Assembly: GCA_022563275.1 (NCBI GenBank)
Contig: JADFNR010000004.1
Span: 1-53,915 of the forward strand
Direction of reading: 5' to 3'
Origin: Chloroflexota bacterium
GTDB taxonomy: Bacteria; Chloroflexota; Dehalococcoidia; UBA3495
DNA length: 53,915 nucleotides
The notes beneath the pieces are model-generated. The model saw only the letters and a list, made by a program, of their open reading frames with translations, was not told the origin of the DNA and searched no databases. The position numbers were made by a program, and so were the translations under genes. This document shows positions 23,450 through 43,108 of this stretch, in pieces; position 1 is the stretch's first letter, and each line of letters starts with the position of its first letter.

Positions 23450-23620
23450 TTACCTCACTTCGCGGTGGGTCTTGTGGGTGCGGCACCTGGAGCAGTATTT
23501 ACGCAACTCTATCCGGTTGGGGTCGTTGCGCCGGTTCTTCATGGTGGTGTAATTACGCTCCCGGCAGTCGCCGCATTGCAGGGTGATGATCTGCCTGACG
23601 TCCGCGGTCTTTCTGGCCAT
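23450..23620 (-). CDS. rpmG: 50S ribosomal protein L33
   Basis: A 56-residue protein starting [20 protein letters not shown] and containing two Cys pairs (CGDC, CSRC), the zinc-binding form of L33. [21 protein letters not shown] matches the family throughout. It lies between tuf (3-base gap) and secE (6-base gap). Confidence 0.95.
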
Positions 23621-23623
23621 GAC

Positions 23624-24808
23624 TTATGACACCACCTTGGTTATTACGCCGGAGCCCACGGTCCGTCCGCCTTCGCGGATGGCGAAGCGCATCTGCTCTT
23701 CGAGGGGCACCGGGCTCATCAGTTCGATCTGCATCTTCACGTTGTCCCCAGGCATGACCATCTCAACGCCCTCGGGCAAGGTGCACTCGCCTGTGATGTC
23801 GCTGGTGCGGATGTAGAATTGGGGTTTATATCCGGAGAAGAATGGCGTGTGCCGTCCGCCCTCTTCACGGCTCAGGATGTAAACCTCGGCTTCCGCCTTG
23901 GTGTAAGGACTCATGGTTCCGGGAGCAACCAGCACCTGGCCGCGTTCCACCTCTTCCCGGTCCACCCCGCGAAGGAGAATACCCACGGCGTCTCCCGCCT
24001 GTGTGGTGTCCAACGTCTTGTGGAACATCTCCAGGCCGGTGGCCACGGTCTCACGGACGTCGCCCCAGCGAATTATCTCAACATTGTCGCCCTGCTTCAG
24101 GGTGCCACGTTCCACCCGGCCGGTTACAACGGTGCCGCGGCCCTTGATGCCGAAGACGTCTTCGATGGGCATCAGGAAGGGCCGGTCGATTATCCGCTCG
24201 GGTATTGGAATGTATTCATCCATGGCTTTGATGAGGTTCAGAATACCTTCCACCGCTTCGGGGTCTCCCTCGAGGGCCTTCAGACCGCTGACGCGGACGA
24301 CGGGCGCGTCGTCGCCGGGGAACCCATAGCGGTTCAAGAGGTCGCGGACCTCCATCTCCACCAGCTCCAAAAGCTCTTCGTCGTCCATCATGTCGACCTT
24401 GTTGAGAGCTACCAGAATACGGGGCACCTCAACCTGCCGGGCCAGAAGGATGTGCTCACGGGTCTGGGGCATGGGACCATCGGGGGCGCTGACCACCAAG
24501 ATCGCGCCGTCCATCTGGGCGGCTCCGGTAATCATGTTCTTGATATAGTCGGCGTGACCGGGGCAGTCCACGTGGGCATAGTGCCGGGTTTCCGACTCGT
24601 ACTCCACGTGAGCAATGGCGATGGTTACGCCGCGGGCCTTTTCTTCCGGGGCGTTGTCGATGCTGTCCATATCCAAATAAGTGGCCAGGCCCTTTTCCGA
24701 GAGCACCTTGGTGATGGCCGAAGTCAAAGTGGTTTTACCGTGGTCCACGTGGCCGATGGTGCCCACGTTCAGATGTTCCTTCGACCGGTCGAATCGCTGC
24801 TTAGCCAT
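23624..24808 (-). CDS. tuf: Elongation factor Tu
   Basis: A 394-residue GTPase delivering aminoacyl-tRNA to the ribosome. G1 is GHVDHGKT, G2 is in EKARGVTI, G3 is DCPGHADY with the catalytic His, and G4 is NKVD. G5, normally SAL, reads SGL here. Domains II and III are intact ([38 protein letters not shown]). Length is normal. It is preceded by tRNA-Thr(GGT) and followed by rpmG; the upstream tRNAs are probably in the same transcript. Confidence 0.97.
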
Positions 24809-30015: not shown

Positions 30016-30582
30016 ATGGCTGAGACCGTTACAGTTAGAAACATGAGACTGGTCAATCCCACCGGAACGTCCCTGTCCTCCGGTGACTTCCACCTTAACG
30101 AGCGCCCCGACACCCTTTCCGGGAAGACCCTGGGCCTGCTGGAGAACTCCAAAGCCAACTCGGATAAAGTCCTCTACGAACTGGGCCAGATGTTGAACGA
30201 GAAATACGACCTGAAGGACATCCTCTACTTCAACAAACATTCGGCGTCCCTGCCCACCAAGCCGGATGTGGTCCAGGACATGCTGAACAAGGTGGACATC
30301 CTCATCACCGGGATCGGTGATTGAGGCTCCTGCAGTTCGTGCAGTGTGCACGACGGCATCGAGATGGAGCGCCTGGGCCTGCCCACCGCGTCCATCATCA
30401 CCCACGTATTCAACAACACCGCTCAGGCCATGACCCGCATGATGGGCGTGCCTGACTTCGAGTACATCGTCGCCGAACATCCCCTCTCCAGTCTGACCGA
30501 CGAACAATGCCGGGAGCGGGCCGAGACTCTGATGCCCGAGGTGGAGCGTATCCTTGTTGGGAGCGCCGCCAAGACCGAATAG
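30016..30582 (+). CDS. UGSC-family selenoprotein (in-frame TGA read as Sec103)
   Basis: The frame opens at ATG 30016 (GGGAGG four bases before). It reads to GIGD, meets TGA at 30322-30324, and continues in the same frame through GSCSSCSVHDGIEMERLGLP to a TAA-type end at 30582, giving 188 residues with Sec at 103. The string U-GSC-SSC is the signature of the UGSC selenoprotein family, whose function is unknown. The two further Cys (three and six residues on) suggest a redox relay. The N-terminal half (TLSGKTLGLLENSKANSDKVL) and C-terminal half (TASIITHVFNNTAQAM, EHPLSSLT) look equally well maintained. A stem-loop at 30337-30353 fits a bacterial SECIS. A conventional call would stop at residue 102. 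Confidence 0.9.
30337..30353 (+). promoter_or_regulatory. Candidate bacterial SECIS element of the UGSC selenoprotein
   Basis: TCGTGCA, loop GTG, TGCACGA: a perfect 7-bp stem. The loop begins with G and lies 20 bases after the TGA, within the range expected for SelB recognition. An alternative weaker hairpin (CTGCA/TGCAG around GTTCG) starts 6 bases after the TGA. Confidence 0.7.
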
Positions 30583-33645: not shown

Positions 33646-36474
33646 ATGGCCGACGAAATCACGATCAGCTTTGATGGCAAAGAGGTTAAGACCCAGCCGG
33701 GCAAGATGGTCCTGGAAGCGGCCATCGAGGCCGGGGTCTACGTCCCATACCTTTGCTACCACCCCGGGATGAAGCCCTTCGCCGCCTGCCGAATGTGCGT
33801 GGTCAACGTGGAGGGGCAACGCGGTTTCCCCACCGCCTGCACCATGCCCGTGGCCGACGGCATGAAGATTCAGACCGACACGACCGAGGTTAACGACCTG
33901 CGCCGCTCGATCATGGAGATGATCATCGCCGAGCATCCCAGCGGCTGTCTCACCTGTCACCGGGTCGATATCTGCGGTCCCACCGATGTGTGCCTGCGCC
34001 ACGTATCGGTCAACGACCGCTGCGTCACCTGCCCCAAGAACGAACGGTGCGAGCTCAAGGACACGGTCCGTTACCTGGGAATGAGCCTGGAATCGCCGCT
34101 GAAATACAAGTACCGGGATATTCCCCTGGAAGTGGCCGACCCATTCTATGACCGGGACTACAATCTGTGCATCGTTTGCGGACGCTGCGTCAACGCCTGC
34201 GAGCAGTTGCGCGGCGACGACGCGATCGCGTTCACCTTGCGCAGCGGCCAGGCGCTGGTGGGCACGTCATTTGGAACATCCCTGCTGGAGTCCGGGTGCG
34301 AGTTCTGCGGCGCCTGCATCGACGTCTGCCCCGTGGGCGCATTGGTCGAGCGGGACCACAAGTGGGACAAGCCCCGCACCGTGGAGCGCACCATCTGCCC
34401 ACTCTGTCCCGTGGGCTGCCAGTTGAACGTGGAGTACGACGGCGGTGGGACCCTGATTCGGGTCGTGCCCGAGATCAACTCCCCGGCCAACCACGGCCAG
34501 GCCTGCTTCAAGGGCAAGTTCGGTCTTAATTTCGTGAACGACCCCAGCAGACTGCAGACTCCCCTGGTCCGCCGCGACGGCCAACTGGTTGAGGCGACCT
34601 GGGACGAAGCCCTCGATGTCGTGGCCGCGCGCCTCGCCGAATACTCCGGAGAGGCGTTCGCCTTTCTGACCTCCCCCAACAGCACCAACGAAGAGCACTA
34701 CCTGGCCCAGAAGTTCGCCCGGACCGCCATGAAGTCCAATAACGTTGATCAGACTTCCAATACCCAGCCTGAGTTGACCGCGGGGTTGGAGCAGTCGCTG
34801 GGTTATGCCGGGGCCACCAATCCCATCTGGGACCTGGAGCAATCGGGTTGCATAATCGTTTTTAGCAGCAACGTCACCGAGGAGCACAACGTGGTGGGCG
34901 TGCCCATCAAACGGGCGGCCCGGAAGGACGCCAAATTGGTGGTCATCGACTCCCGGGAAGTGGAGTTGACCCGCTACGCTCACGTTTGGCTGCGCCCGGT
35001 CCCCGGCACCGAGCTATTATTGCTGGGCGGGTTGCTGAAATCGGTGATCGACCAGGGGTTCCAGAAAGACGACTGGCTGGCCGAGAACTGCGAAAGCCCG
35101 GCAACCCTCCAGTACGCCCTCAGCGCCCTGGACCTGGAAGAGATCTCGAAGATAACCCAAGTCGATGCCGCGGACATCGCCGAGGCGGCCCGTCTCTACG
35201 GCGAAGCGGATACGGGCGCTCTGGTCTACGCTCTGGACAATATTCAGCCGGGCCTGGCCCGGGACTGCGTTCTTTCTTTGGTGAACCTGGCTTTGGTGAC
35301 CGGAAACTTGGGCAAACCAGGCGCGGGGATCTACCCCATGCGGCCCGGCGCCAATGAGCAGGGCGCCTGGGACGTGGGTTGCGTGCCTGACCGGCTACCC
35401 GGATACCGGTGGGTCTCAAACCCAGATGACCGGAAGGCGCTTGAGGCGCTCTGGGACTCGTCCATCCCCGAGATTCCGGGACTGGGCCTGGCCCAGATCA
35501 TCGAAGGGGCCAGAAACGGCCGGGTCAAGTCCTTATTCCTCATCGGAGACAGCCCCAATTTCAGCAACGGCAAACTGGGAGACGCCTTGGCCGCCCTGGA
35601 CAACCTGGAATTTCTGGTGGTCTGCGACTCCTTCTTGAGCGACGCCGCCCAACGCGCCGACGTTGTTCTGCCCAGGTCCACCTTCGCCGAGAAAGACGGC
35701 ACCTTCACCAACCTGGAGCGGCGCATCCAGCGTCTGAAGCCAGGCAGGAAACTGCCTGATGGCGGCGCGCGCGCTGAATGGCGGGTGATCTGCGATGTGG
35801 CCCATAAGATGGGAGCGCCGGGCTTCCTACTAGCATCGCCCTCTGAGACAATGGATGAGATAGCGCGGGTGGCGCCGGTCTACGCTGGGGTATCCTACCG
35901 GAGTCTGGCCAACCAGGGAGGCCTGGTGTTCAAGACTGACCTGAAGAGCCCGCAGCCGACTCAGGTGCTGTACGCCAGCCGGGAAGACCGAGGCCTGCAG
36001 TGGCCGGTTCAAAGCGGCGGCAAGGGCACTTCGATACTGTACGAAGACGGATTCAAGGACCGGAGAGCGGAACCCATCACGCCGGCCTTTGTTTCGGCCG
36101 ATGCGGAAGACGGCCCGGACACCGATTTCCCGCTCTGGTTCGTGCCTGGCCGGGTCCTGTTGCAACAGGAACGGGTGATCAACATCGTCAAAGGACGCCG
36201 CAACACGATCGAAAGAGACGAATTCGTGGAATTTAATCCCGCCGACGCCGCCTCGTTATCCATCCAAGAGGGTGGCAAGGTGGTGGTGGAGACGGCCGCC
36301 GGCCGGCTTGCCGGGTTGGCCCGCATCAACGAAGCGGTTCCCGTCGGCGTCGTTGCCTCCACATCCCTGTTCGGGCAGTTGGCGATCGACCTGCAGATCT
36401 CCGAAGAGATGGAGCCCGCATCCCGGGTGCCGGGACTGGATATCCACCGGGCCCGCGTCAGCAAGATCGACTAG
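33646..36474 (+). CDS. NuoG/formate dehydrogenase alpha-like iron-sulfur molybdopterin-fold subunit without Cys/Sec ligand
   Basis: A 942-residue protein. A 2Fe-2S domain comes first (CYHPGMKPFAACRMC). A His/Cys 4Fe-4S motif follows (CLTCHRVDIC, about 104-113), then two ferredoxin clusters (CIVCGRCVNAC, CEFCGACIDVCP). The Mo-bisPGD domain carries its own 4Fe-4S set (CPLCPVGC, then CFKGKFG). In formate dehydrogenases the metal-binding Cys or Sec follows NNVD. Here residues 369-378 read QTSNTQPELT with no Cys. Formate oxidation is therefore doubtful; it may be an electron-transfer subunit like NuoG. Third gene of the nuoE-F set. Confidence 0.88.
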   Translation: MADEITISFDGKEVKTQPGKMVLEAAIEAGVYVPYLCYHPGMKPFAACRMCVVNVEGQRGFPTACTMPVADGMKIQTDTTEVNDLRRSIMEMIIAEHPSGCLTCHRVDICGPTDVCLRHVSVNDRCVTCPKNERCELKDTVRYLGMSLESPLKYKYRDIPLEVADPFYDRDYNLCIVCGRCVNACEQLRGDDAIAFTLRSGQALVGTSFGTSLLESGCEFCGACIDVCPVGALVERDHKWDKPRTVERTICPLCPVGCQLNVEYDGGGTLIRVVPEINSPANHGQACFKGKFGLNFVNDPSRLQTPLVRRDGQLVEATWDEALDVVAARLAEYSGEAFAFLTSPNSTNEEHYLAQKFARTAMKSNNVDQTSNTQPELTAGLEQSLGYAGATNPIWDLEQSGCIIVFSSNVTEEHNVVGVPIKRAARKDAKLVVIDSREVELTRYAHVWLRPVPGTELLLLGGLLKSVIDQGFQKDDWLAENCESPATLQYALSALDLEEISKITQVDAADIAEAARLYGEADTGALVYALDNIQPGLARDCVLSLVNLALVTGNLGKPGAGIYPMRPGANEQGAWDVGCVPDRLPGYRWVSNPDDRKALEALWDSSIPEIPGLGLAQIIEGARNGRVKSLFLIGDSPNFSNGKLGDALAALDNLEFLVVCDSFLSDAAQRADVVLPRSTFAEKDGTFTNLERRIQRLKPGRKLPDGGARAEWRVICDVAHKMGAPGFLLASPSETMDEIARVAPVYAGVSYRSLANQGGLVFKTDLKSPQPTQVLYASREDRGLQWPVQSGGKGTSILYEDGFKDRRAEPITPAFVSADAEDGPDTDFPLWFVPGRVLLQQERVINIVKGRRNTIERDEFVEFNPADAASLSIQEGGKVVVETAAGRLAGLARINEAVPVGVVASTSLFGQLAIDLQISEEMEPASRVPGLDIHRARVSKID

Positions 36475-37497: not shown

Positions 37498-40092
37498 GTG
37501 ACACCGATTCGCCGGCAATATCTTAAGATCAAGGGCGAACATCCGGACGCGATACTGCTATTCCGGATGGGCGACTTTTACGAGACCTTCGATGACGACG
37601 CCGTGCTCGCCGCCAAAGAGCTCGAGATCACCCTCACCTCCCGCAGCATGGGTAAGGGCCTGCGGGTGCCCCTGGCGGGGGTGCCGGCCAATTCCCTTGA
37701 CACCTACCTCGCCCGCCTGATCAAGAAGGGCCATAAGGTCGCCATCTGTGAGCAGACCTCCGACCCCGCCACCTCCAAGGGGTTGGTGGACCGGGAGGTG
37801 GTCCGGGTCGTGACTCCGGGCACCGTGATCGAGTCGGCCCTGCTGGACCAGAAGACCAACAACTACCTGGCCGCTGTTTCCGTCGGTTCCGCGGCCGAAG
37901 AGCGGGTGGGACTGGCCTACGTTGACATCACCACCGGCGAGTTTCTGGCCACCGAATTGGCCCTCCACGAGCTGCCCCTGGAACTGGAGCGCATCGAAGC
38001 CGCGGAGGTGCTGGTCCCCGAATCCGACGACCCTCCGCCCTGGGCCGGTCATGGGAACAACGGCGCTGGACCCAACTACGAGCTGACGCCGGTGGAGCCC
38101 AGGATATTCCATCCGGACGAGGCCCGCCAAGCGCTCCTGTCCCACTACGGCATCCTCACTCTGGAGTCCTTTGGCTGCGAGGGCAAGGACCTGGCCGTCG
38201 CCGCCGCCGGGGCCATCGTGGAGTACCTGGCGCGCACCCAAAAGGCCGCCAAACTCAAACTGGCCAACCTGTCCATCTACGCCACCGGCAGTTTCATGAC
38301 TCTGGACTCCCAGACCCGCCGCAACCTGGAGCTGTTCGCCGCGGGGCGCAACGAAAGCAAGGAACTTTCCCTGCTGGCGGCGCTGGACCGCACCAAAACG
38401 CCCATGGGAGGCCGGTTGCTGCGTCAATGGCTGGGCCAGCCCCTGTTGGACCTTACCGAACTGGAACAGCGGCTCGACGCCGTCGACCACTTCTACCTGG
38501 ACGGCCTGAAACGGACGGCCGCGATCTCCTCCCTGGGCAAGGTCGCCGATCTGGAGCGCATCGCCGGGCGCATCGTCTCCGGGACGGTTGCCCCCAGGGA
38601 GTTGATCGCCTTGAAGGACGGCCTGGCCGCCGTGCCCAGCCTGCGGGAGTTGCTGGACGGCCCAGATCTGGAGTGGCTCCAAGGCCAACTACTCCCCTTG
38701 CCCGATGTGTGCTCGCTGATCGAGGAGTCCATCGCCCCGGACCCGGTGGGCGCCGTGGGGGACGGCAACGTGATCAGACCCGGCTTCTCAACCGAGATGG
38801 ACGAACTAAAGAGCGCCTCCTCCAACGCCCGGCAGTTCATCGCCGGACTGGAACAGAGGGAAAGGGAACGCACGTCGATAAAGGGCCTCAAAGTAGGGTA
38901 CAACCAAGTCTTTGGTTATTACATCGAAGTCACCAAGTCCAACATCGACAAGGTGCCCGAGGACTATATCCGGCGTCAGACCCTGACCAACGCCGAACGC
39001 TATATCATCCCGGAATTGAAGGAATACGAGTCCCTGGTGCTTAATGCCCGGGAACGTCTCGAAGAAGCGGAACGGGATGTCTACCACCGGGTCTGCGCCC
39101 AGTTGGCTGAATCGGCCGGCGCCATCAGCCGGACCGCCGCGGCCATAGCCAGGCTGGACGTGTTCTCGGGCCTGGCCGACGCCGCCGTGGAGAACGGCTA
39201 CGTCCGGCCCAAACTTGACGAGGGCAACGCGATCCGGATCAAGGACGGCCGCCACCCCGTGGTGGAACGGGTCCTGCAAACCGGGGCCTACGTGCCAAAC
39301 GACGTGGACCTCTCCAACGACGATACCAGGGTGTTGGTGCTGACCGGCCCCAACATGGCTGGAAAGTCCACCTATATCCGGCAGGTGGCGATCATCACCC
39401 TCATGGCCCAGATCGGCTGTTTCGTGCCGGCGTCGGAGGCGTCGATCGGTCTGGTGGACCGCATCTTCACCAGGGTCGGGCTGCAAGACGACCTGGCCAC
39501 TGGCCAGTCGACCTTCATGGTCGAGATGGTTGAGACCGCCGCCATCTTGAACCAGGCAACCCCGCGTTCGCTGGTGATCCTGGATGAGATTGGCCGGGGC
39601 ACCAGCACCTACGACGGCCTGTCCATCGCCCGCTCAGTGATCGAGCACATCCACAACGACCCCAGGCTGGGCTGCAAGACCCTGTTCGCCACCCATTACC
39701 ACGAGCTGACCAAGCTGGCCGCCAGTCTGCCCGGAGTGCGTAACTGCAGCGTGGCGGTGACCGAAGAGGGCAACAAGGTGGTCTTCTTGCACAAGATCGT
39801 GCCCGGCGGGGCCGACAAGAGCTACGGGGTTCATGTGGCCCAAATGGCTGGGCTGCCCCAGGGCGTGATCAACCGCGCCTGGGAGGTGCTCGCCGATCTG
39901 GAGGCCCAGAGCCAGGAGAATGGCGGACGCCGAGCCCGCCCAAAGGGCGAACCGGCGCAGCAGATGGCCCTGTTCACCGACGGCGGGAGGTTGCAGGGGC
40001 TGCTCCAGGAACTGGACATACCGAATCTGACGCCGCTTGAAGCCATAAACAAGCTCTACGAGCTGCAGAAAGAAGCCAACGAAGGGCCTTGA
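37498..40092 (+). CDS. mutS: DNA mismatch repair protein MutS
   Basis: An 864-residue mismatch-recognition ATPase. It starts TPIRRQYLKIKGEHPDAILLF and has the mismatch-wedge motif FYETF (Phe-x-Glu). The connector and clamp domains are followed by Walker A (TGPNMAGKSTYIRQ), Walker B (LVILDEIGRGTSTYDGLSIA) and FATHYHELT. Length is typical. GTG 37498 begins the conserved N-terminus. mutL follows 1.3 kb downstream after two short genes. Confidence 0.97.
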   Translation: MTPIRRQYLKIKGEHPDAILLFRMGDFYETFDDDAVLAAKELEITLTSRSMGKGLRVPLAGVPANSLDTYLARLIKKGHKVAICEQTSDPATSKGLVDREVVRVVTPGTVIESALLDQKTNNYLAAVSVGSAAEERVGLAYVDITTGEFLATELALHELPLELERIEAAEVLVPESDDPPPWAGHGNNGAGPNYELTPVEPRIFHPDEARQALLSHYGILTLESFGCEGKDLAVAAAGAIVEYLARTQKAAKLKLANLSIYATGSFMTLDSQTRRNLELFAAGRNESKELSLLAALDRTKTPMGGRLLRQWLGQPLLDLTELEQRLDAVDHFYLDGLKRTAAISSLGKVADLERIAGRIVSGTVAPRELIALKDGLAAVPSLRELLDGPDLEWLQGQLLPLPDVCSLIEESIAPDPVGAVGDGNVIRPGFSTEMDELKSASSNARQFIAGLEQRERERTSIKGLKVGYNQVFGYYIEVTKSNIDKVPEDYIRRQTLTNAERYIIPELKEYESLVLNARERLEEAERDVYHRVCAQLAESAGAISRTAAAIARLDVFSGLADAAVENGYVRPKLDEGNAIRIKDGRHPVVERVLQTGAYVPNDVDLSNDDTRVLVLTGPNMAGKSTYIRQVAIITLMAQIGCFVPASEASIGLVDRIFTRVGLQDDLATGQSTFMVEMVETAAILNQATPRSLVILDEIGRGTSTYDGLSIARSVIEHIHNDPRLGCKTLFATHYHELTKLAASLPGVRNCSVAVTEEGNKVVFLHKIVPGGADKSYGVHVAQMAGLPQGVINRAWEVLADLEAQSQENGGRRARPKGEPAQQMALFTDGGRLQGLLQELDIPNLTPLEAINKLYELQKEANEGP

Positions 40093-40220: not shown

Positions 40221-40374
40221 TGTGCGCTGCGTCTCTTGAAGGAGAAACTAAGTACGGCCGGTAATGCAGAAAAATAACGCCCCTTTTCACCAGCCCGCTG
40301 CGGGTATAAGATACGCCGGGGATTTTGCCGTCCCGTCTCAGCGCCAAGGGTCCCGAGGCGTTTAGGAGGCCCAA

Positions 40375-40734
40375 TTGAGCCAGACCGTTGAATTCTATTG
40401 GTGGCCCCGTTGATCGACCTGCCGCAAGGTAAGAGAGTTGCTCTTACAGAACGGGATCGAGGTGTCGGACCGGGATTTCTTCAAGGAATCCCTCAGCGAG
40501 ACGGAGATCCGCGAGTTGGCGGCCATTGTTGGCACGGAGAACATCTTCGCCCGGCGCAGTCCCAGCCTGAAGAAGCTGGGGTTGGCCGATAAAGAGCTCT
40601 CCGATGACGAGATGATCAATCTGATGCTGCAGGAGCCAAAGTTGGTGCGGCGGCCCCTGCTTAAGGTGGGCGGCACGCTGATGGTCGGCGCCGGCAATGC
40701 CGCGGTGGATGCCGCCATCGCCGCCGCTCGTTAG
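40375..40734 (+). CDS. ArsC/Spx-family selenoprotein (in-frame TGA read as Sec13)
   Basis: From TTG 40375 (AGGAGG five bases upstream) the frame reads SQTVEFYWWPR, meets TGA at 40411-40413, and continues STCRKVRELLLQNGIEVSDRDFF to 40734: 119 residues, the normal ArsC/Spx length. Family members have C-x-x-C or C-x-x-S followed by RK at this site; here it is U-S-T-C-R-K. The C-terminal half has the ArsC signature EPKLVRRPLLKVGGTLMVGAG, including the conserved Arg pair. A perfect stem-loop at 40429-40447 fits a bacterial SECIS. Likely a thiol-disulfide reductase or arsenate reductase-like enzyme; Spx-type regulation is less likely. A gene caller would report only the part after the TGA. Confidence 0.9.
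40429..40447 (+). promoter_or_regulatory. Candidate bacterial SECIS element of the ArsC-like selenoprotein
   Basis: GTAAGAG, loop AGTTG, CTCTTAC: a perfect 7-bp stem. It starts 15 bases after the TGA and its loop lies 22-26 bases after it, with G at the second loop position. Both spacing and loop agree with SelB-binding elements. Confidence 0.8.
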
Positions 40735-40885: not shown

Positions 40886-41323
40886 ATGAATATCTTCTTC
40901 GATGTGGATTACACCATCCTCGGGTTGGACAATAGCCTGAGGCCGGATACCAAGGAAACTTTCCAGGCGTTATTGGACGAAGACCACAAGATCTATATCT
41001 GGTCCGGGATGGGTGAGCGGTGGGAAGTCGTCAACAAATTCGAATTGAACCAATATGTGAGCGGCGTCTACGAGAAGCCCACTCACCACTTCCACGAACG
41101 GCTGGAAGAGCTGGGCGTGCCCTTCGAGCCCGATTTTGTCATCGACGACTATCCGGAGGTGGTTGCCGCCTTCGGCGGCGTTTGGGTGCCGCCCTATTTC
41201 TTCAAGCGGTCCGTCGACCAAGAGATGCAGCGTATCTACCGCATCGTCTGCGACTTCAAGGCCACGGGCACGTCGGAAGACAAGCAGTACCGCAAGAAGG
41301 GCTCCACCGTTCCCCTTTTCTGA
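40886..41323 (+). CDS. HAD-superfamily hydrolase-like protein
   Basis: A 145-residue small protein. Motif I is FFDVDYTILG (D6, D8), motif II sits near IYIWSGMG, and a late acidic motif is FVIDDYPEVV. These are the essential features of the haloacid dehalogenase phosphatase fold without a cap domain. Substrate unknown. A TATAAT at 40820-40825 may be its promoter, but no good -35 is seen. Ends 39 bases before mutL. Confidence 0.75.
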   Translation: MNIFFDVDYTILGLDNSLRPDTKETFQALLDEDHKIYIWSGMGERWEVVNKFELNQYVSGVYEKPTHHFHERLEELGVPFEPDFVIDDYPEVVAAFGGVWVPPYFFKRSVDQEMQRIYRIVCDFKATGTSEDKQYRKKGSTVPLF

Positions 41324-41362: not shown

Positions 41363-43108
41363 ATGTCCATTAAGGTCCTCCCGCCAGACCTGGCCGCCAA
41401 GATCGCCGCCGGCGAGGTGGTGGAACGCCCTGCGTCGGTGGTCAAAGAACTGGTCGAAAATTCCATCGACGCCGGCTCCAGCCGGATCACAGTGGAGATC
41501 AAGGCCGGTGGCGTGGAACAGGTCAAGGTTATCGACGACGGCCACGGCATCCCCGCCGAAGAAGTGTCCATCGCTTTCCAGCGTCACGCCACCAGTAAGA
41601 TCGACAGCCAAGAGCAACTCGACGCCATCGCCACCCTGGGTTTTCGGGGCGAGGCCCTGCCCAGCATTGCCGCCGTCTCCCGCACCGTTATAACCACACG
41701 GCAGCCCTTGGACACGGGCGGCTTCCGCCTGGAATTGCTCTGGGGAGAACCGGTGTCGTCGGGAAGTCAGGGTTGCCCGCCGGGGACTTCCGTGGAAGTA
41801 TCGGACCTGTTCGGCAACCTGCCGGCCCGGCGCAAGTTCCTCCGCTCGTCATCAGCGGAAACCTCCCGCGTCCAGGAACTGGTCAGCCGCTACGCATTGG
41901 TCTTTCCGGGAATACGCTTTCAGTTGATGGTGGATGGCCGCGTCTCATTCACCAGTCCCGGCAACGGCCTCCCCAGGGAAGCCTTGCTGGCGGTCTACGG
42001 GCCCCAGGCCGCCACCGCCATGCTGGAGGTCCATGGGGAGGACCCGGAGACCGGCTACCAGGTGGACGGTTTCGCCGGCGCGCCCAGCCTGACCCGCGCC
42101 AACCGCACCTACATGACCTTCTTCGTCAACCGCCGCTGGGTCCAGAGCCGGATGCTGTCCTTCGCCGTTGAAGAGGCCTACCTGGGCCTCCTTCAGGTGA
42201 AACGCTATCCGCTGACGGCCCTGAACATCAGCATCCCCTATGAAGACGTGGACGTTAATGCTCACCCGTCCAAACGCGAGGTGCGTTTCAAGGAGGAGAG
42301 CCGGGTATTCTCCACGGTGCAGCGGGCCGTCCGCGCCGTCTTGGTCGCCGATTCGCCGGTCCCATCCATGAATACCGCAGCGGGGGCGGCGCCCCCGGAT
42401 GCGGACTATCCGGCGGCCCTGGCGCCGTCGTTCTTCCCCAGAAGCGCCTTCGGCGGCGTCCGTAGCGGCGGTGGCTTGCCCGATTATCAGGGTGGGTTTG
42501 CCGGGGCTCCGGCGGATGCGGCCGCGCCCCGCCAGCCGGCGCCGCCATTGAAGGTGGTGGGCCAGCTTAAGCTCACTTACATCGTTGCTGAGGGACCCGC
42601 CGGGATGTTCTTGGTTGACCAACACGCCGCCCACGAGCGGGTGTTGTTTGACCGCATCCGCCAGAAAACCTCGGAGCAAGAACCTCAGTCCCAGCCCCTA
42701 TTGGAGCCGATGGCGGTGGAACTGACTCCGGCCCAGGGCGACACTTTGAAGTCCAACCGGGAAGCGCTGGAGAGTTACGGGTTCCAGTTCGAGCCCTTCG
42801 GCGACGGCAGCTACCTGCTGCGGGCCGTCCCCGCCATCTTCGGTGACGGCGACCCGGCCAAGTCGCTATTGGACGTGCTGGATATGACGGCCTTTGAGGG
42901 GTTGGTGCGGCAGAAAGAGGATGTGACGGCGGCGTCCATCGCTTGTCACGGGGCGATAAGGGCGGGGAAGTCCTTGACCCAGCCGGAGATGGTTGCGCTA
43001 TTGGAGCAACTGGAGGCTACGCCCAACCCCCATACCTGCCCCCACGGCCGGCCCACCATGGTCCATTTCAGCTCCCACCACATGGAGCGGGAGTTCGGCC
43101 GGCGCTAG
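41363..43108 (+). CDS. mutL: DNA mismatch repair protein MutL
   Basis: A 581-residue protein. The N-terminal GHKL ATPase has IAAGEVVERPASVVKELVENSIDAG, DDGHGIP and GFRGEALPSIAAV. A Pro/Ala/Gly linker spans about 335-395. The C-terminal domain has DQHAAHERVLFD, close to the endonuclease motif DQHA(x2)E(x4)E but ending in Asp, plus ACHGAIRAG and CPHGRPTM. It is therefore probably a nicking MutL, as in bacteria without MutH. The last codons are repeated downstream in a tandem duplication. Confidence 0.96.
   Translation: MSIKVLPPDLAAKIAAGEVVERPASVVKELVENSIDAGSSRITVEIKAGGVEQVKVIDDGHGIPAEEVSIAFQRHATSKIDSQEQLDAIATLGFRGEALPSIAAVSRTVITTRQPLDTGGFRLELLWGEPVSSGSQGCPPGTSVEVSDLFGNLPARRKFLRSSSAETSRVQELVSRYALVFPGIRFQLMVDGRVSFTSPGNGLPREALLAVYGPQAATAMLEVHGEDPETGYQVDGFAGAPSLTRANRTYMTFFVNRRWVQSRMLSFAVEEAYLGLLQVKRYPLTALNISIPYEDVDVNAHPSKREVRFKEESRVFSTVQRAVRAVLVADSPVPSMNTAAGAAPPDADYPAALAPSFFPRSAFGGVRSGGGLPDYQGGFAGAPADAAAPRQPAPPLKVVGQLKLTYIVAEGPAGMFLVDQHAAHERVLFDRIRQKTSEQEPQSQPLLEPMAVELTPAQGDTLKSNREALESYGFQFEPFGDGSYLLRAVPAIFGDGDPAKSLLDVLDMTAFEGLVRQKEDVTAASIACHGAIRAGKSLTQPEMVALLEQLEATPNPHTCPHGRPTMVHFSSHHMEREFGRR

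Follow-up and report, generated by a model that had tools for sequence, protein, structure and literature searches.

ArsC-like selenoproteins were included in a 2006 survey (PMC1794560), and the 2008 Global Ocean Sampling (GOS) survey described two forms, ArsC 1 with the motif UxxS and ArsC 2, named ‘Arsenate reductase 2’, with 42 sequences, the motif UxxC and the domain entry cd03032 (PMC2398784). The UxxC ArsC-like form is repeated in a 2022 review (PMC9312934), and a 2026 review lists an ‘arsenate reductase-like protein, UxxC’ under NF041106 with the 2008 survey as its source (PMC13188914), as far as the accessible parts of these four papers go. Since UxxC ArsC-like selenoproteins were published by 2008, this kind of protein is already known. 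Here we analyse a 53,915-nt stretch of contig JADFNR010000004.1 from a Chloroflexota bacterium (GCA_022563275.1), called the window, whose positions are used as coordinates throughout. It contains a gene on the forward strand, at 40375..40734, that was originally predicted to encode an ArsC/Spx-fold protein with selenocysteine (Sec) in place of the catalytic cysteine. What is new is that 49 of 50 genomes of one family carry this gene, all with a TGA codon at the Sec position and mostly between mutS and mutL; in the literature searched, which covers the relevant work incompletely, neither this lineage nor this neighbourhood was the subject of a paper. We consider that the gene very probably encodes a Sec-decoded ArsC/Spx-fold oxidoreductase. 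Its parts are as follows, SECIS standing for selenocysteine insertion sequence and ORF for open reading frame.

40364..40369, + strand: Shine-Dalgarno-like AGGAGG preceding the TTG start
40375..40734, + strand: gene for the putative Sec-containing ArsC/Spx-fold protein, TTG start, TAG stop, 119 residues
40408..40410, + strand: CGT codon immediately 5' of the TGA, CGT in 44/44 family rows with Arg there (46 rows in total)
40411..40413, + strand: TGA predicted to be read as Sec, residue 13; TGA or Cys only in relatives; aligned with Cys10 of Spx
40420..40422, + strand: TGC codon for the presumed resolving Cys16, invariant in the 83-row alignment
40429..40447, + strand: putative SECIS stem-loop GTAAGAG-AGTTG-CTCTTAC, 7/7 pairs in most TGA rows, with two-sided changes
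40438..40734, + strand: 98-aa ORF 3' of the TGA, the database form of the gene (a truncation)

The gene begins with TTG at 40375 and consists of 12 codons, the TGA, 106 further codons in the same frame and the stop TAG at 40732-40734; all of these parts, and the AGGAGG before them, were re-found as originally described. In relatives L001-L011, 11/11 have a GGAGG no more than 20 nt from their start codon. The read-through protein is indeed a full-length ArsC/Spx-like protein of 119 residues with the motif U-S-T-C-R-K, and it matches the Pfam ArsC family (PF03960) with 66.5 bits, compared to a gathering cut-off of 24.

If the TGA encodes Sec, relatives would be expected to carry either TGA or Cys at this site, and this is what we found. 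A scan of species genomes yielded 12 loci, of which 11 are from Chloroflexota assemblies, titled SAR202, Dehalococcoidia or Chloroflexi, and have TGA at the site in every case; the remaining locus, L012, encodes an ArsC of Rhodobacteraceae and has Cys. Within the family of G001, all 49 genes have TGA in this column. In a class sample of 294 genomes, 44 matched, and removal of one glutaredoxin (Grx)-like match (genome G050, locus L119) leaves 39 TGA and 4 Cys forms. In a phylum sample of 400 genomes, 46 matched at E 1e-15; the 30 loci fetched from it, 8 of them from genomes already counted, have 27 TGA, 2 TGC and 1 TGT. Over the window and 102 loci together, the column holds 99 TGA, 3 TGC and 1 TGT, and after removal of ten second loci and L119 it holds 88 TGA and 4 Cys (n=92) and no other residue. 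Thus relatives with nothing conserved at the TGA, named in the original prediction as the contrary outcome, were not seen.

Comparison with Cys-containing homologues places the TGA on a catalytic cysteine. Spx proteins are the first five sequence matches among solved structures, and because the match to Spx 7f75, which runs from query 5 and chain 2 onward, is gapless through this part, U13 falls on Cys10 and Cys16 on Cys13. The central claim of Sec at the catalytic-Cys position of an ArsC/Spx fold is thereby borne out at the level of the alignment. In a 154-protein tree built with the Sec column excluded, and with database rows that have Trp scored as Sec, the Sec/Cys state changes at least 16 times, 6 of these forced by starred branches; the direction of change was not inferred because the columns are few and many forks are open.

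Two other readings of the TGA bear on these data. In one, the TGA would stand for tryptophan, as in code 4, or would be passed by generic read-through; the Sec column holds Cys in 61 and Trp in 5 of 66 full-length database proteins. A gene caller that translates TGA as Trp would produce such entries, and one of them (P0002) is identical to the L067 protein except at the Sec residue. Moreover, TGA terminates mutS and three other checked genes in the window, and relatives without TGA use TGC or TGT at the site, none of them TGG. Together with the hairpin, SelB and tRNA-Sec described below, these points leave the tryptophan reading with almost no probability. In the other, the TGA would result from faulty sequencing, or it would be a genuine stop and the 98-aa ORF 3' of it the gene; many database proteins of 96-101 aa indeed begin after the TGA. 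However, dozens of independent assemblies share the TGA at this column, the short forms begin at varying points (96, 98 or 101 aa), and, based on a structure model, the short form would lack the active site as well as the first strand. The codons 5' of the TGA are also under protein constraint: pS is 0.659 for codons 2-12, 0.599 for codons 14-26 and 0.840 for codons 27-40, the value for codons 2-12 being lowered by the two Trp codons there and by a frozen CGT. We regard an error or a genuine stop as extremely improbable.

The frozen CGT is the codon directly before the TGA, which is invariant among the family rows that bear Arg there, whereas Arg codons elsewhere vary. It may be a recoding context signal. 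On comparative evidence, the TGA at 40411-40413 is the predicted Sec codon.

A hairpin follows the TGA by 15-34 nt, with the arms GTAAGAG (40429-40435) and CTCTTAC (40441-40447) around the loop AGTTG; the perfect 7-bp stem and the G in the loop were thus correctly described. Among 89 TGA rows (including L119), at the same register, 7/7 pairs form in 76, 6 in 4, 5 in 1 (a row that holds an N) and 4 or fewer in 8, while the four Cys genes form only 2, 2, 3 and 4 of the 7. Two-sided changes occur at four of the seven pairs: pair 2 is C-G in 42 rows and T-A in 29, pair 3 is A-T in 39 and G-C in 26, pair 4 is A-T in 64 and C-G in 20, and pair 5 is G-C in 67 and A-T in 18. Sliding the 3' arm by 1-3 bases reduces the mean number of pairs from 6.58 to between 2.71 and 4.31. 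A SECIS-like element was expected under the original prediction, and the hairpin is kept by compensating changes in the TGA genes.

To compare the stem with what protein coding imposes, the protein sequence was held fixed and codons were redrawn from pooled usage in 2000 draws. For the window alone, 7/7 pairs at this register arose in 0.35% of redraws, and the mean number of pairs is 6.39 observed versus 3.89 expected (57 of 58 unique sequences, one with an N being left out). Averaged over the 57 sequences, 8.8% of redraws reach the observed pair count, because some rows are without the stem. In the family rows, Glu21 is GAG in 46/46 and Leu23 is CTC in 46/46, and codons beyond the stem vary about as expected. 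The hairpin is more than chance. Folding by itself is weaker evidence: the z score is -3.34 for the 25-nt core (0/200 shuffles as good), -1.21 for 45 nt and -0.68 for 57 nt. By eye, some stemless rows show another short hairpin nearby.

The machinery for Sec insertion is present in most relatives. Among the 11 nearest, tRNA-Sec with the anticodon UCA was read in 8 and SelB scored above its cut-off in 8; by the Rfam cut-off the tally of tRNA-Sec is 10/11, of which 2 rest on 47-bit matches resembling the secondary ones of other genomes. Of 12 family genomes, all 12 have SelB and 11 have tRNA-Sec, and SelA and SelD are present in 6/6 family genomes searched, each SelD itself containing a TGA. In three of these genomes (G321, G322 and G323), the contig with the gene measures 4.4, 4.0 and 3.3 Mb, respectively, in agreement with the rounded genome size, and all three have selA, selB, selD and tRNA-Sec. 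In the class sample, tRNA-Sec or SelB is found in 39/39 TGA-form genomes (both in 34), compared to 185/255 of the other genomes (both in 145; Fisher p 2e-5 and 2e-4). Of the four Cys-form genomes of the class, 2 have neither, 1 has the tRNA only and 1 has both.

Several observations weigh against Sec decoding. The full stem at this register is absent in 13/89 TGA rows, 8 of which have 4 or fewer pairs. Two of the 11 nearest relatives (G003 and G007, small assemblies of 1.9-2.1 Mb) lack a full SelB or a strong tRNA-Sec and have the 47-bit matches only, and in the same set G006 lacks tRNA-Sec and G011 has SelB only in part; completeness is not given for these four genomes. Sec machinery is in any case widespread in the class sample (224/294). 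In the window, neither tRNA-Sec nor SelB was found, selA and selD not having been sought there. The SelB proteins of seven relatives match only a 32-35% identical ORF at about 23519-24766, which lies near tRNA-Thr and tRNA-Tyr genes and is probably EF-Tu. Thus the proposal that the sel genes would accompany this gene held in relatives with near genome-sized contigs, but the window itself contributes no tRNA-Sec or SelB. Taken with the column and the hairpin, we judge that the UGA at 40411 is almost certainly read as Sec in this gene.

The function of the protein is less clear from its family placement. The best NCBIfam match is TIGR01617 (Spx/MgsR), which the window protein misses narrowly (73.1 bits, curated cut-off 75.05) and all 83 rows match at 1e-5. 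The ArsC family (seleno)protein entry NF041106 shares the ArsC fold and the Sec/Cys position, but the window protein is below its curated cut-off (37.7 versus 85 bits); at 1e-5 the entry is matched by 66/83 rows, with a best E of 4.2e-12, none of 13 related genomes has a match above the cut-off, and most matches there began past the TGA. The ‘Arsenate reductase 2’ proteins of the GOS survey, whose members come from marine samples, are likened to the window protein by motif and domain description only, as given in the accessible part of that survey, namely the UxxC motif and the ArsC entry cd03032; some may be this very lineage. YffB PA3664 (PDB 1rw1) has 27% identity and, going by its entry title, is a solved protein without Sec.

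A genuine glutaredoxin- or thioredoxin-coupled arsenate reductase, in which Sec replaces the catalytic Cys, would be consistent with the ArsC fold. However, TIGR00014 (arsenate reductase, glutaredoxin) scores 50.3 bits versus a curated cut-off of 106.05, the window motif is UxxC compared to CxxS in the ArsC relative L012, and none of the neighbouring genes examined was recognised as an ars gene. Arsenate reductase binds arsenate through three Arg residues. The Arg of L012 that aligns with window position 106, which we take to be the third active-site Arg (R107 of the E. coli enzyme), is Arg in 0/83 rows, a result that rests on one ArsC relative and on the alignment placement. The window protein differs in the same two respects, motif and Arg, from the glutaredoxin-coupled ArsC group (PDB 1i9d, 1jzw). 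Because of the TIGR00014 score and the absence of this Arg in 83/83 rows, the canonical arsenate-reductase reading appears weakened, and we consider it unlikely.

Alternatively, the protein could be a regulator like Spx/MgsR, whose predicted binding to RNA polymerase would be controlled by a selenenylsulfide switch. Spx (PDB 1z3e, 7f75) is closest by sequence and heads the matches among solved structures, its CxxC falls on U13 and C16, which the model places at the N-terminus of helix 1 (residues 14-25), and Arg-Pro 93-94 is conserved; we take ArsC_Spx to be the name of cd03032. In contrast to Spx, the window protein has Sec rather than Cys, lies under the TIGR01617 cut-off and is shorter, with 119 residues versus 131-132 aa in most Spx chains listed, and the model is about as good a fit to YffB and to arsenate reductase. 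A regulator of this type is thus also improbable in our estimation.

We favor instead an oxidoreductase of the ArsC/Spx fold. In the proposed scheme, SelB and Sec-tRNA would decode the UGA at 40411, guided by the hairpin at 40429-40447, and Sec13 of the product would attack an oxidised substrate. Cys16 would then resolve the intermediate to give a selenenylsulfide, which a thioredoxin- or glutaredoxin-type system would re-reduce. This scheme is proposed because of the UxxC motif and the fold, and we hold the Sec13/Cys16 chemistry to be probable with moderate confidence.

The neighbourhood of the gene is conserved.

37498..40092, + strand: mutS, five MutS domains in Pfam, upstream in 43/49 family loci
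40886..41323, + strand: 145-aa protein, possibly HAD-like, downstream in 48/49 family loci
41363..43108, + strand: mutL, Pfam MutL_C and DNA_mis_repair, downstream in 48/49 family loci

Both mutS and mutL flank the gene in 42/49 family loci; L011 ends inside the gene, and the contig of L095 extends for about 950 bp beyond the gene in the direction of mutS. The 145-aa protein has no Pfam match, and its residues 3-42 match Cof/HAD weakly (20.9 bits, cut-off 137). This protein is 92-98% identical in L001-L009, compared to 80-90% for MutS. In a second clade of 8 rows, mutL adjoins the gene in 5 (L045, L048, L113, L114 and L115) and was not seen within the fetched flanks in 3. The position near mutS and mutL suggests a functional link, but it can also be plain gene order. 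In one such proposal, the protein would be a selenol redox partner of DNA repair that, with the 145-aa protein, senses or repairs oxidation for MutS-MutL, or else an Spx-type regulator with a selenenylsulfide switch. If true, this would explain the site between mutS and mutL in most family loci and would also cover the mutL adjacency in part of the second clade; we nevertheless consider it very unlikely. In L025 (1851-2834), a gene for 8-oxoguanine DNA glycosylase adjoins the Sec-ArsC gene on the opposite strand, a further DNA-repair neighbour that is possibly there by chance.

Other genes were noted in the course of this analysis, two of them in the window.

30016-30582, + strand: UGSC family (seleno)protein (NF041046), TGA at 30322-30324, 143.2 bits read through the TGA versus a cut-off of 125
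33646-36474, + strand: molybdopterin oxidoreductase, 942 aa, with an N-terminal NuoG-like part

In standard ORFs the UGSC gene appears as two pieces, of 102 and 78 aa. Of the relatives that cover its TGA, 7/7 retain it, although folding around the TGA at 30322 gave nothing notable. The match and the kept TGA mean that the contig carries two independent Sec candidates. The best NCBIfam match of the 942-aa protein is formate dehydrogenase alpha, below its cut-off (499 versus 666 bits). The Grx-like protein of G050 (L119, 2897-3145) has an in-frame TGA in the motif UPTC, followed at the same distance by a hairpin of 7 pairs, and is likely another selenoprotein family.

Many public database copies of the gene are proteins of 96-101 aa without the active site, annotated as hypothetical or, where named, as ArsC, Spx or MgsR, and therefore the selenoproteome of SAR202/Dehalococcoidia-type Chloroflexota is in part hidden. 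The TGA is kept in all 49 gene-bearing genomes of the family, and 46 of the 400 genomes sampled across the phylum hold a relative. Because the site between mutS and mutL recurs, a redox link to mismatch repair can be approached by experiment.
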